Below, one piece after another: positions 9,939 through 13,949 of a DNA stretch of 38,753 bases. The stretch is from the NCBI GenBank assembly GCA_016795105.1, contig JAEUIH010000070.1:1-38753 (forward strand), given 5' to 3'. A model generated the notes under the pieces. The model saw only the letters and a program-made list of their open reading frames with translations, ran no database searches and was not told where the DNA came from. The position numbers and the translations under genes are program-made. Each line of letters starts with the position of its first letter. Position 1 is the first letter of the stretch. Source of the DNA: Planctomyces sp. Lineage in GTDB: Bacteria; Planctomycetota; Planctomycetia; Planctomycetales; Planctomycetaceae.

Positions 9939-11285
9939 CTATTTCTTAGTCGTGTCTGAAGTATTGGAAGGAGTTCCCGGCTGGTGATGGTGATTTAACC
10001 AGTCGGCGACAGGAAGAAGTTCTTTCGGTGTCAGAAAGCCGTCCTGATCTGTGTCGAGTTTTTCGAAGTGCGGCGATACCAGGCCGACCACTTCGGACTT
10101 CTTCAGCTTGCCGTCCTTGTCTTTATCGCCCACCATGAGTTGCCGAGTGAACTCTTCGGGCTTCCAATATCCAGCGCCTTCGCCTTTCGCTCCACCGCCA
10201 TCCTGATCACGTTCAAGGTGGAGCGTGTATTCCTGTCGGACGGTGTGACAAGTCTCTTCTCCGACGCACGCGTAGTACGTCACGATCAGTTTCACACGCT
10301 CGTTTTCCGGCCACGACTCCACGTTCAACAGAAATTCACGGGGATCGGCATCACTTGCAACGCTGACCTTTTCAGCTGAGATCATCCGTTTCTCGAGCTG
10401 AACTGATTCCGCAGCTTCGATCGTAACCGTCAGCGGCTCTGTCAGATTATTCCAGTGAGCATTGTGAAATGGATCCAGATGAAATCCAAGATACAGCATC
10501 CCGGACTTGTCTCGGAGCAGCGAAGGATCGGCTTCGGCACGGAGCTTGGCGTAAAATGGTTGCCCCTGGGGATCAATTCTGGGATCAATGTGGATGGCGA
10601 ACATCTGGGGTCGCTTCACGCGGGGCACCACCCCTCGAACGGCGCCTCCCGGCAGCGGCGGCTGAATCTTCAGATTCAACTCGTCTTCCTGAGTAATCTT
10701 CTCCGTTGGACCAACCAGTTCAATTAAATCCTTTCGCACCAGCTGGGGATTACTCCACGCCCTCTTGCGAACCACGATTCCGTCAGGACCGATGAGAAAC
10801 TGCGAGTTGGGTCTGTCTCCAAGAGCATGTTTCAGGCGGTTGTCGATGTGGTCGACAATCCATGGAATCCTGGTCCCAAACTGGGACTGAGCCTGATTGG
10901 CATGCATCAGCCTCTCTTCGGTTGTAAAGGGCTGTACGTACCCTCCGGCAAGTTCGGGATGAGCCAGCGACTTGTAAATGAAAAAGAACTTCACACCCAG
11001 CGGAGCATAGTCTCGATGAACAGCCTCCAGTCCGGCAATGTTCCACATGGACGGTGGACATGTCATGCAGCCGAATGTCAGAACAGTGTAATGACCTTTC
11101 AGGTCTCCCGTCCGAAACGAACTACCATCGGAATTGAACACCGTAACCTCAGGAAGTGCATCTCCGATCAACGGCTTCTGAGAAAGAAATTCTTCTTCCC
11201 GTTCCTGCATTCTTTGCTGTGCTGACGACTGAGAACAGAAAGATACAACGATCAGTGCAATCAATGTCATTTGTTTAAGACACAT
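9939..11285 (-). CDS. Secreted deiodinase-like thioredoxin-fold protein with two C-terminal EF-hands
   Basis: The frame is open to 11357, but the ATG at 11285 has a GAGG about 8 bases upstream and opens a clean signal peptide (MTLIALIVVSFCSQSSA, cut before QQ). Residues about 40-215 are a redoxin fold with FGCMTCPP at 71-78, closely matching the FGSCTUPP active site of iodothyronine deiodinases with Cys76 (TGT codon) where those have selenocysteine; the blocks LAHPE, PWIVDHIDNRLKHALGDRPNSQFLIGPDG also fit PF00837/AhpC-TSA. The middle is a beta-rich domain like the ligand-binding part of thiol:disulfide proteins. Two EF-hand loops close the protein (DKDKDGKLKKSE, DTDQDGFLTPKE). Last gene of a minus-strand set with DUF1559. 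Function in redox or dehalogenation is inferred, not shown. Confidence 0.85.
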   Translation of the reverse strand: MCLKQMTLIALIVVSFCSQSSAQQRMQEREEEFLSQKPLIGDALPEVTVFNSDGSSFRTGDLKGHYTVLTFGCMTCPPSMWNIAGLEAVHRDYAPLGVKFFFIYKSLAHPELAGGYVQPFTTEERLMHANQAQSQFGTRIPWIVDHIDNRLKHALGDRPNSQFLIGPDGIVVRKRAWSNPQLVRKDLIELVGPTEKITQEDELNLKIQPPLPGGAVRGVVPRVKRPQMFAIHIDPRIDPQGQPFYAKLRAEADPSLLRDKSGMLYLGFHLDPFHNAHWNNLTEPLTVTIEAAESVQLEKRMISAEKVSVASDADPREFLLNVESWPENERVKLIVTYYACVGEETCHTVRQEYTLHLERDQDGGGAKGEGAGYWKPEEFTRQLMVGDKDKDGKLKKSEVVGLVSPHFEKLDTDQDGFLTPKELLPVADWLNHHHQPGTPSNTSDTTKK

Positions 11286-11385: not shown

Positions 11386-11814
11386 CTACAGAATCGCGCG
11401 AAATACTGTCAGGACGGGATCTGTGCCGATGACGTAGGTCATGGTCTTCTTCACGGGTTCACCACCATCTTCTGCTTCCAGTGTCAGTTCGACTTCACAG
11501 AACCAGTTTGCATCCTCCACACGTCCTTCTCCCTTAACCTCGTAGGTCAGAAGTCGTCGACCAGCGCTCCACAGTGCCTCCTGCGCGACAATTTCCGGTT
11601 CGCGTTCTCGCAAGTCCTCGATGGAGCCACCACCTTTCCAGTGCTCCATGACATCTGTGAGGGATGCTTTCGCAATCGCAACATCCACTGGAGCCGCTCG
11701 TTGTTCTCCACAGCCAGCAATTATGCTCATTGCTGACAACAAAGTCAGAGAACAAACGATGTAGTGACGACTTACGATGTGACGACAACAATTGATGTAA
11801 CAGAGAGCACGCAT
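11386..11814 (-). CDS. Small lipoprotein accompanying DUF1559
   Basis: A 142-residue protein with a hydrophobic N-terminus and a lipobox (IIAGC, then GEQ), so probably a membrane-anchored lipoprotein. The N-terminal region before it is long and Cys-rich (MRALCYINCCRH), so a later start is possible. The mature part has a helix with WKGGGSIEDL and a beta-sheet region (RRLLTYEVKGEGRVEDANWFCEV). Planctomycetes often carry a short lipoprotein of this build right behind a DUF1559 gene; that placement is repeated here (123 bases downstream of DUF1559). Molecular function unknown. Confidence 0.75.
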   Translation of the reverse strand: MRALCYINCCRHIVSRHYIVCSLTLLSAMSIIAGCGEQRAAPVDVAIAKASLTDVMEHWKGGGSIEDLREREPEIVAQEALWSAGRRLLTYEVKGEGRVEDANWFCEVELTLEAEDGGEPVKKTMTYVIGTDPVLTVFRAIL

Positions 11815-11937: not shown

Positions 11938-12864
11938 TCAGAACTCTCCGATCGTCTCACCGCCGGCTCGTGTTCCAATGGCACGCCATGTGCCAAGGTC
12001 AATGTACTCACTTGTGAACCGAACAGAACCATCGCAAAGCAAAACGTGAACACCTCCAGTGTGGCGGCTGTTGGCTGCCATCGCTGCTTTTCCAGCAGCC
12101 TGAAATCCGCAGGATCGGGAGTTTGGACCGGCGACATGCTGATAACCGTGTTTTCCATCAATCCATGGAGCCCCCATGAACTGTGGAAACTGATTGGCGA
12201 GATTGGTGACGTCAACGGCAAGGCACATTTGGACAGCGTCTGCCTGAGTGGCGGGATTCGCGGTACTAAGGAACGTATCCGACCGAGGCGTCACAATACC
12301 GTTCGATCCGTCAGACACGATCCGCTCGCTGAATGCAGCCGTGTTACTTGTTCCGTCTGTAAGATCACGGAACCTGATGCAGCTCTGGTAAAACATGACA
12401 CCGTCCGCGGCGGTGTCCTGCCATCGCAGGCTTGCACCCTTGTTCGGGAAGTAGTTGATCGCCCCCCCTGCGGCAGGCTGAGAATTTGCAAGGTCTGAAG
12501 GACAGCGAAATGCCGGCAACTCCATCAGCCTTGCATTGTTGTTGACTGCGTCAGTAATCGGCCGGTTGAAATCAATACTGGCATACACATTGCCCTGTTC
12601 AATCTGAGGAAGCATCTGGCTAATGGCGGAATACTTGTTCCCTGTACCTCCCATCCCAAACGGGAAACACAGTGCAGTGTCATGATAATTGTGTACTGCC
12701 AGCCCGATCTGCTTCAGGTTGTTTTTGCATTGTGTCCTCCGAGCAGCTTCACGAGCCTGCTGGACCGCTGGCAATAGCAGTGCAATCAAAATCGCGATGA
12801 TTGCGATGACGACGAGAAGTTCGATGAGCGTGAAGCCTCGTGATTTACATGAAATACGAAACAT
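11938..12864 (-). CDS. DUF1559 protein (type II secretion pseudopilin-like, H-X9-DG)
   Basis: 308 residues. The N-terminus is a class III signal peptide ([27 protein letters not shown]) with the GF/TLIE prepilin peptidase site, followed by the family block [28 protein letters not shown] in pieces that define DUF1559/SBP_bac_10. The C-terminus has the H-X9-DG motif ([12 protein letters not shown]). The protein is expected to be processed by a prepilin peptidase and to assemble or stay at the membrane; the family is greatly expanded in planctomycetes and its precise role is not settled. It is the first gene of a minus-strand run with the lipoprotein and the deiodinase-like protein. Confidence 0.95.
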
Positions 12865-13212: not shown

Positions 13213-13689
13213 TCAGGACGCTGGAGGTCGAAAGATCGTCGAGGGCAAATAGCGAGCACCTCGTTCAGATTCCGGCAACTCAACACTTCGTCCTGAGTTG
13301 ATCCGCAGAGAAAGCATCTCCAGCAACAGATCCGCGTCGTTGTCTCGAAGTTGATTGGTTGGCCCCGATGGTACTGGTAGCAGTGGAAGCGGATTTCCGG
13401 AACAATTTGGACCACTGCAACGGCGCACAGGGACGTCAACTGGTGTCACGGGCGATTCCAAAAGCTCAAAGCTTCCCCAGGAATTCTTCAACCAATGTCC
13501 TTCCGACGTCGAATGACCGGCTACCGGCTTGCCATTTCGAAACAGGTAGTCCCCGCATGAAGCTGCAGCGGAACCTGAACTGACGATTGCAGGAAATAGT
13601 GCCGCGGCGACCCACATCCCAGCACGCAACCAGCACTGCACGCGTTGAAGCGGCGAATGGCTCAATTTGCTGTGGAGGACGGCCTGCAT
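13213..13689 (-). CDS. Small secreted planctomycete protein with CSGPNCS motif
   Basis: The frame runs from a TTG at 13728, but the ATG at 13689 is the better start although it lacks a clear ribosome-binding site. The 158-residue product has a long basic N-terminus, a hydrophobic core and a cleavage site (WVAAALFPAIVSSGSAAAS), then CGDYLFRNGKP, a cysteine cluster RRCSGPNCSGNPLPLLPVP and a C-terminal region ending in RYLPSTIFRPPAS. The CxGPxCS cluster with a following Pro stretch recurs in small secreted proteins of planctomycetes; no function is known to me. It is encoded alone on the minus strand. Confidence 0.65.
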   Translation of the reverse strand: MQAVLHSKLSHSPLQRVQCWLRAGMWVAAALFPAIVSSGSAAASCGDYLFRNGKPVAGHSTSEGHWLKNSWGSFELLESPVTPVDVPVRRCSGPNCSGNPLPLLPVPSGPTNQLRDNDADLLLEMLSLRINSGRSVELPESERGARYLPSTIFRPPAS

Positions 13690-13949
13690 GGAACTAACTC
13701 GCTTGTGCCCACACCGCGCGATTCTCAAAAATCAAATTCCGGAGGCTTCTGATTCCGAAATTCAGGAAGGCAGATATAGAAGTCTACGAATTTGAATCTT
13801 CAAGACGCCAGTGGAATTCGCTTGTAATTTGCAGAATGCTCATTATCTCGCAATTCAAGGGAACATTGAACATGGTGAATTCGAGCATCCTCTACGCGTC
13901 ATCTCGTCTCAGGCACTTGCTCAAACCTTCGAACTGACCAATGTTGAGA

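Follow-up and report, generated by a model that had tools for sequence, protein, structure and literature searches.

A probable cysteine descendant of an exported deiodinase-like selenoprotein family in a planctomycete

Contig JAEUIH010000070.1 of Planctomyces sp. (assembly GCA_016795105.1), whose 38,753 nucleotides are called the window here, contains on its reverse strand a gene for a 448-amino acid, cysteine (Cys)-form protein that combines a deiodinase-like domain, a probable DsbD_N-like domain, and EF-hands (positions 9939-11285; ATG at 11285, stop codon TAG at 9941-9939). Sequence comparisons make it nearly certain that this gene is the Cys descendant of a family of exported bacterial selenoproteins with the motif GC[LM]T[U/C]PP, where U is selenocysteine (Sec). 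With the same near certainty, they indicate one Sec-to-Cys replacement, nested among Sec forms and confined to a small clade of three genera, in which the selenocysteine insertion sequence (SECIS) has decayed. An earlier note on this DNA had described an exported protein with a deiodinase-like block, FGCMTCPP, and a plain TGT Cys. The block is indeed present at residues 71-78 (11052-11075), alongside PWIVDHIDNRLKHALGDRPN, and the Cys76 codon is TGT (11058-11060). Export is likewise suggested by a signal-peptide-like N-terminus, judged by eye, at residues 1-22 (11220-11285) and by a hydrophobic N-terminal stretch that a rough count, with script-selected starts, gives for 78 of the 80 relatives. 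That reading was nevertheless incomplete, having missed a second redox domain at residues ~228-360 and the Sec orthologues that make this gene an exception.

The selenocysteine codon and its replacement

Relatives were collected by a scan of one genome per species, which found 135 loci; 80 were kept, and the counts given here per 80 refer to these (L numbers denote loci and G numbers genomes). One of the two scan patterns reads Cys codons only and so favours the recovery of Cys forms. The GC[LM]T[U/C]PP motif is present in all 80 kept homologues, and this recurrence excludes chance as the source of the observation. At the position of Cys76, the codon is TGA in 78 loci, with frames that remain open past it, and TGT in two. 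Once the four Cys rows are set aside, each of the eight strongest matches in 40 related genomes contains exactly one in-frame TGA, which is the Cys76 codon in all seven that were read. The Sec loci are 35-60% identical to the window protein over its whole length, and the hosts of the kept relatives, mostly metagenome bins, belong to the Planctomycetota, Acidobacteriota, Verrucomicrobiota, Kiritimatiellota, and Poribacteria. TGA is also the terminal stop codon of 29 of the 80 genes; thus, the genetic code is unchanged, and TGA as a recoded codon was rejected.

Directly after the TGA, the Sec relatives contain a hairpin, GUCYCC-RGUY-UGGAGAC. Over 75 distinct rows, 90.2% of the cells in its stem are paired, and three of the eight pairs, all of them linking third codon positions, show changes on both sides. 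None of 500 shuffles reaches the observed score for pairing, for pairs changed on both sides, or for covariation. The small apical loop starts with G in 78 of 78 Sec rows; a G in the small apical loop of bacterial SECIS elements is described in the available text of PMC1088965. A covariance model gives the held-out Sec rows L106 and L107 71.0 and 65.0 bits, and the four Cys rows 32.5 (the window), 27.1, 24.5, and 18.0 bits. The Cys rows keep 5, 5, 4, and 3 of the eight stem pairs; the 78 Sec rows keep 6 to 8. In the window the decayed element spans 11007-11060, with the loop GAC and three of eight pairs gone.

Several results are weak or weigh against this interpretation of the hairpin. Folding energy on its own is a weak test: 12.8% of the synonymous shuffles do equally well, and that share is 1% or less in just 12 of 78 rows. 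The window's own region beats most of its shuffles (58 of 500 fold as low), using another pairing. The pair at columns 25-35 is not formed in 43 of 75 rows, and the further pair types do not exceed those of shuffles (71/500). In the pair count, a slide of -1 yields more cells changed on both sides (34 vs 21), yet with 50.5% paired, and a slide of +1 yields more such changed pairs (4 vs 3) and more pair types (10 vs 9), yet with 40.8% paired.

The four Cys rows found (the window; L026 from G001, a Fuerstiella sp.; L004 from G004; and L032 from G008) are monophyletic in an 84-row tree, with a support of 98 in the Shimodaira-Hasegawa-like approximate likelihood ratio test. In a 31-row tree the clade has a support of 100/97; its sister is a Sec row at 99/94, followed by two further Sec rows at 97/97. 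Both trees are rooted at the midpoint and the smaller one is without L102, but the decayed hairpin supports the Sec-to-Cys direction independently of the root. The other three Cys forms are 77, 63, and 58% identical to the window protein. Residue 79 is Phe in 77 of the 78 Sec forms and Tyr in one, and Ser in all four Cys rows. In sequence terms this is a possible compensating change, made in one event close to the catalytic residue.

The window genome itself encodes SelA (508 bits), SelB (255.7 bits; cut-off 242.25), and a tRNA-SeC(tca). G008 encodes all three as well, although its SelA is cut by a contig edge and falls under the cut-off. In G001 and G004, no SelA is found at E <= 1e-10, and SelB and tRNA-Sec are both under cut-off. 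Among seven Sec-form genomes, SelA is over cut-off in all seven, SelB in six (that of G017 is in fragments), and tRNA-Sec in six, the exception being G013 (79% complete). The SelB and tRNA-Sec profiles match 40/40 genomes and 14/14 controls at a loose E-value, and only matches over cut-off are used here; tRNAs of other kinds probably account for several matches at 47-53 bits. A survey of bacteria, PMC1794560, counts Sec-to-Cys as the rarer direction in the text available, with 15 events in four families versus 33 Cys-to-Sec events in 17 families. It places 11 such Cys homologues in Sec-decoding organisms, some with SECIS remnants, a class that the window gene fits.

In a 392-genome sample of the phylum, at least four genomes, including the window's own, contain the gene at E <= 1e-40. 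Of the genomes labelled as the same genus, G001 has it, and G002 (66% complete) and G003 (94%) give just a shorter, weaker match at E <= 1e-5. At one Sec locus (L029:3939-4952), a further copy of the family lies immediately upstream of the Sec gene; its listed open reading frame (ORF) starts past the active-site region.

Two predicted redox domains in one chain

The deiodinase/peroxiredoxin-fold domain occupies residues 36-193 (10707-11180). Cys73 and Cys/Sec76 are invariant in 54 of 54 aligned members (the alignment writes Sec as C), as are T75-C76-P77-P78, a deiodinase-type active site with Thr before the Sec/Cys and Pro after it. Structure prediction, proposed in the earlier note as a check, agrees: the core of the predicted model has a deiodinase-type fold, for which the deiodinases DIO2 and DIO3 are the best structural matches, ahead by 2.3 to 3.1 Z units. 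The comparison of Pfam families that the note also proposed gives a divided answer. The window protein scores 16 bits with PF00837 (E 0.0075), under the curated cut-off of 27 bits, and passes that of AhpC-TSA; across the family, PF00837 matches 51 of 54 members at E <= 0.01 (best 1.4e-9). In an alignment read by eye, T-[U/C] falls on Thr129 and Sec130 of DIO, and Tyr104 and His109 on Tyr157 and His162, whereas Leu107 takes the place of Glu160 and His182, located within an insertion, has no counterpart. The set of residues in the proposed DIO proton relay (Tyr157, Glu160, His162, and His182 in DIO2 numbering, as given in the accessible text of PMC11592359) is therefore incomplete. The family thus shares with DIO1-3 the thioredoxin/peroxiredoxin fold, the sequence G-x-x-T-[U/C]-P-P, the Tyr, and one relay His. 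It differs in looking exported, where the DIOs have an N-terminal transmembrane anchor (same source), and in having a partner Cys at -3, a second redox domain, and EF-hands.

The motif of 2-Cys peroxiredoxins is PxxxTxxC, and thioredoxin, ResA, and TlpA carry a CxxC in which the second Cys lies at +3 of the nucleophile. Here the Thr lies at -1 and the Cys at -3 of Cys/Sec76, and position +3 holds the Ser, Phe, or Tyr of residue 79, so neither pattern is matched. Membership of a plain peroxiredoxin or thioredoxin/ResA family was rejected on this spacing, though AhpC-TSA passes its Pfam cut-off. (A PxxxTxxU form of the peroxiredoxin motif appears in the portion of PMC13188914 that could be consulted.)

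Membership of NF038285 (deiodinase_rel, "deiodinase family protein") was also rejected, with 51.7 bits for the window protein against a curated cut-off of 250; all 11 family members scanned match this model at E <= 0.1 (best 6.3e-23). Proteins of the NF038285 type are similarly exported-looking and deiodinase-like with EF-hands, have Sec or Cys, and adjoin the family gene in several loci; in these paralogues, however, the EF-hands precede the redox domain and the motif is FG[NS]FT[C/U]GP. Six that were scanned score 326-535 bits on NF038285 and 76-114 bits on PF00837, with no DsbD_N match among them. In two such paralogues (L027:8003-8077 and L034:4470-4544), the active site (FGSFT*GP[YF]) contains TGA, and the hairpin that comes next shares the apical CCAGUYUGG; thus, NF038285 includes Sec forms too.

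The second domain, residues ~228-360 (10206-10604), is predicted by AlphaFold2 to be an Ig-like beta-sandwich (pLDDT 90.8) and is probably DsbD_N-like. In the model, C340 belongs to strand 330-341 and C346 to strand 345-359, and the two form a hairpin Cys pair (C340-x5-C346, 10248-10268) that is invariant in all 54 members, as are C73 and C/U76. The N-terminal domain of DsbD (nDsbD) similarly has C103-C109 on a hairpin, according to the available text of PMC11838788. PF11412, the Pfam model of that domain, gives a weak match, at E <= 0.01, to 13 of 54 members; in ten excised domains, chosen by hand from the 54, it is found in eight at E <= 0.017, seven of them across almost the full length of the model and one over cut-off. 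Both nDsbD and ScsB have an Ig-like sandwich with a Cys pair on a hairpin, which the predicted domain resembles; there the sandwich is fused to a membrane domain, and in the window family to its presumed client. Other results speak against this assignment. The window's own excised domain has no PF11412 match, a profile of the middle domain finds nothing in the PDB by sequence, and its hhalign alignment to DsbD N-terminal regions is not significant. A fold search with the middle domain returns nDsbD among tied matches, not singled out.

The two EF-hands reported in the earlier note are present near the C-terminus, with canonical loops at residues 387-398 (DKDKDGKLKKSE, 10092-10127) and 411-422 (DTDQDGFLTPKE, 10020-10055); EF-hand_1 scores 25.9 bits against a cut-off of 25.4. 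By a simple motif count, EF-hand loops are missing from 24 of the 80 relatives, and on this basis the EF-hands were rejected as the core of the protein. Lanmodulin-type lanthanide binding was rejected as well, because the matches sit on the EF-hand end and reach 24.7 bits against a model cut-off of 135. Two Bryobacterales members (L073 and L083) end in a long series of EF-hand-like repeats; other members have different tails.

A possible relay and its competitors

The best reading of these features is perhaps an exported selenol/thiol reductase, acting perhaps on peroxides, that its own DsbD-like domain would regenerate. In this scheme, which is set outside the cytoplasm, an oxidised substrate would be attacked by Cys76 or, in relatives, Sec76; a peroxide or another small oxidant is the likeliest candidate. 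The residue thus oxidised would be resolved by Cys73, three positions before it, in a disulfide or selenosulfide. The Cys73-Cys/Sec76 bond would next be reduced by C340-C346 in the second domain, and that pair in turn by the membrane DsbD encoded in the genome (DsbD_TM is found in 11 of 11 genomes examined); the EF-hands would be accessory. Such an intramolecular relay has about an even chance of being correct, and the mechanism as a whole is put at the same level. Peroxide as the substrate is a tentative choice, a little short of even, that is favoured by a gene for an AhpD-type "peroxidase-related" enzyme in the same G004 cluster. The broader proposal is equally tentative: a widespread exported selenoenzyme family in five phyla, whose deiodinase-like domain would be reduced in-chain by a DsbD_N-like domain and act on peroxides or natural organohalogens, with a Cys descendant here despite retained Sec decoding. 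The earlier note's suggestion of a Ca-responsive redox enzyme or dehalogenase is thus partly supported: a redox enzyme is the favoured reading, and the EF-hands would be accessory to it.

One competitor is a ResA/TlpA-type protein-disulfide reductase or folding factor, which would serve exported partners, for example the DUF1559 and lipoprotein products of the gene cluster, rather than a small molecule. This is unlikely, though it deserves some weight: the second Cys is not at +3, where Ser, Phe, or Tyr is found, and the partner is at -3; the neighbours differ outside the window's subfamily; and Sec is, in our opinion, costly for plain disulfide reduction. A reductive dehalogenase with the mode of action of animal deiodinases, and with natural iodinated or brominated aromatics as its substrates, would suit the DIO2 and DIO3 fold matches, the correspondence of T-[U/C]-PP, Tyr104, and His109 to DIO residues, and the retention of Sec in 78 of 80 loci. 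It is nevertheless improbable given the missing counterparts of Glu160 and His182, and no halogen-related gene was noticed alongside, although no search was aimed at such genes. Moreover, the neighbouring NF038285 paralogues keep EAHPTDGW or a similar sequence and are the real PF00837 members; they are thus the better dehalogenase candidates.

The Cys form could also be catalytically dead and kept for structure or for calcium or metal binding, which the change of Phe79 to Ser might suggest. This too is quite improbable, since the four Cys rows retain Cys73, Cys76, Cys340, Cys346, and other invariant residues, at the identities to the window protein given above. Finally, it is scarcely credible that TGA here stands for a true stop, a sequencing error, or an altered code instead of Sec: although the assignment comes from sequence, the same codon recurs in 78 of 80 loci with the whole-length identities given above, TGA acts as a stop elsewhere in these genes, third codon positions covary in the hairpin that follows, and SelA is present in all seven Sec-form genomes tested.

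Gene neighbourhood, earlier descriptions, and meaning

As the earlier note had observed, the gene lies behind two genes on the same strand: an ORF for a small lipoprotein-like protein of 142 amino acids (11386-11814, without a Pfam match at E <= 1) and a DUF1559 pilin-like gene of 308 amino acids (11938-12864; PF07596, E 2.3e-55). Within the window's 12-member subfamily this synteny is conserved. By tblastn, DUF1559 is upstream on the same strand in all 11 other members (that of L032 is a fragment at a contig end), and the lipoprotein is matched in nine of these 11 loci; the two without a match, L029 and L034, were joined to it through ORF clustering. In L028, L029, and L034 another deiodinase-type gene sits between. 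Beyond the subfamily, ORF clustering of flanks of up to 5 kb finds a DUF1559 neighbour in L038 only. Genes of the deiodinase_rel type occur in the L026, L027 (two), L028, and G004 loci (326-527 bits on NF038285); in L033 and L034 they are recognised from the motif alone. The second gene of L027 and that of L034 have the TGA.

In G004, the deiodinase_rel gene runs on into an AhpD/CMD-like stretch (TIGR01926 36.4 bits and PF02627 21.5 bits, both under cut-off), and an upstream gene, L108:1356-2726, matches TIGR01926, "peroxidase-related enzyme" (AhpD-type), with 87.7 bits against a cut-off of 81.8. Of four AhpD-looking proteins scanned, this one is over cut-off, two are under, and L115:5374-6633, in the window's own genome, has no match. 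In that genome a different contig carries the deiodinase_rel gene (535 bits), where one flanking ORF gives a weak TIGR01926 match and one gives none. Judged by this neighbourhood, the genes may make up an exported thiol-redox cluster connected with peroxides.

The G004 locus L108:1-11297 contains the DUF1559-lipoprotein pair three times, each time preceding a redox-like gene: the AhpD-type peroxidase-related gene, the Cys protein, and an 841-amino acid deiodinase_rel protein with the AhpD/CMD-like extension. In the window, positions 13213-13728 on the reverse strand encode a small secreted-looking protein with SCGDYLFRNGKP, which has homologues upstream in L026 and L027; by eye, a similar ORF (L115:9597-10226) lies beside the second redox cluster of the same genome.

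Bacterial deiodinase-like selenoproteins are known (PMC1088965, PMC2398784, PMC9312934, PMC13188914, each as far as its text was available). Those of marine bacteria (PMC1088965, PMC2398784) resemble the present family in having Sec and Cys forms related to PF00837 and a bacterial SECIS. The tables of PMC9312934 and PMC13188914 list UxxC, however, whereas this family has CxxU, and the accessible portions of these papers do not mention a second redox domain. PMC9402790 (2021) describes, in the text available, new selenoprotein fusions from the ocean, one deiodinase-like with an EF-hand and one peroxiredoxin-like with a "DsbC" domain (Pfam11412). The first is a better fit to NF038285 than to the window's family. 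The second may be the window's family, although it was assigned a U/CxxC motif; SECIS decay, a Cys clade, and a gene cluster are not mentioned in that text. PMC4807772, in its available part, reports putative selenoproteins in two planctomycetes. The open-access literature searched (subscription papers and supplements lay outside the search) describes neither the Cys clade nor the gene cluster, and NCBIfam 20.0 has no family-specific model among the matches of 11 members scanned.

The natural reductant of animal deiodinases is still debated. If the proposed relay is true, the family would provide a deiodinase-fold selenoenzyme with a built-in reductant. Two of the four Cys genomes still have Sec machinery, a remnant of the hairpin is recognisable, and the replacement is fixed in a small clade; thus, paired Sec and Cys enzymes are on hand for direct comparison, and the exchange of selenium for sulphur is one made by nature and open to study.
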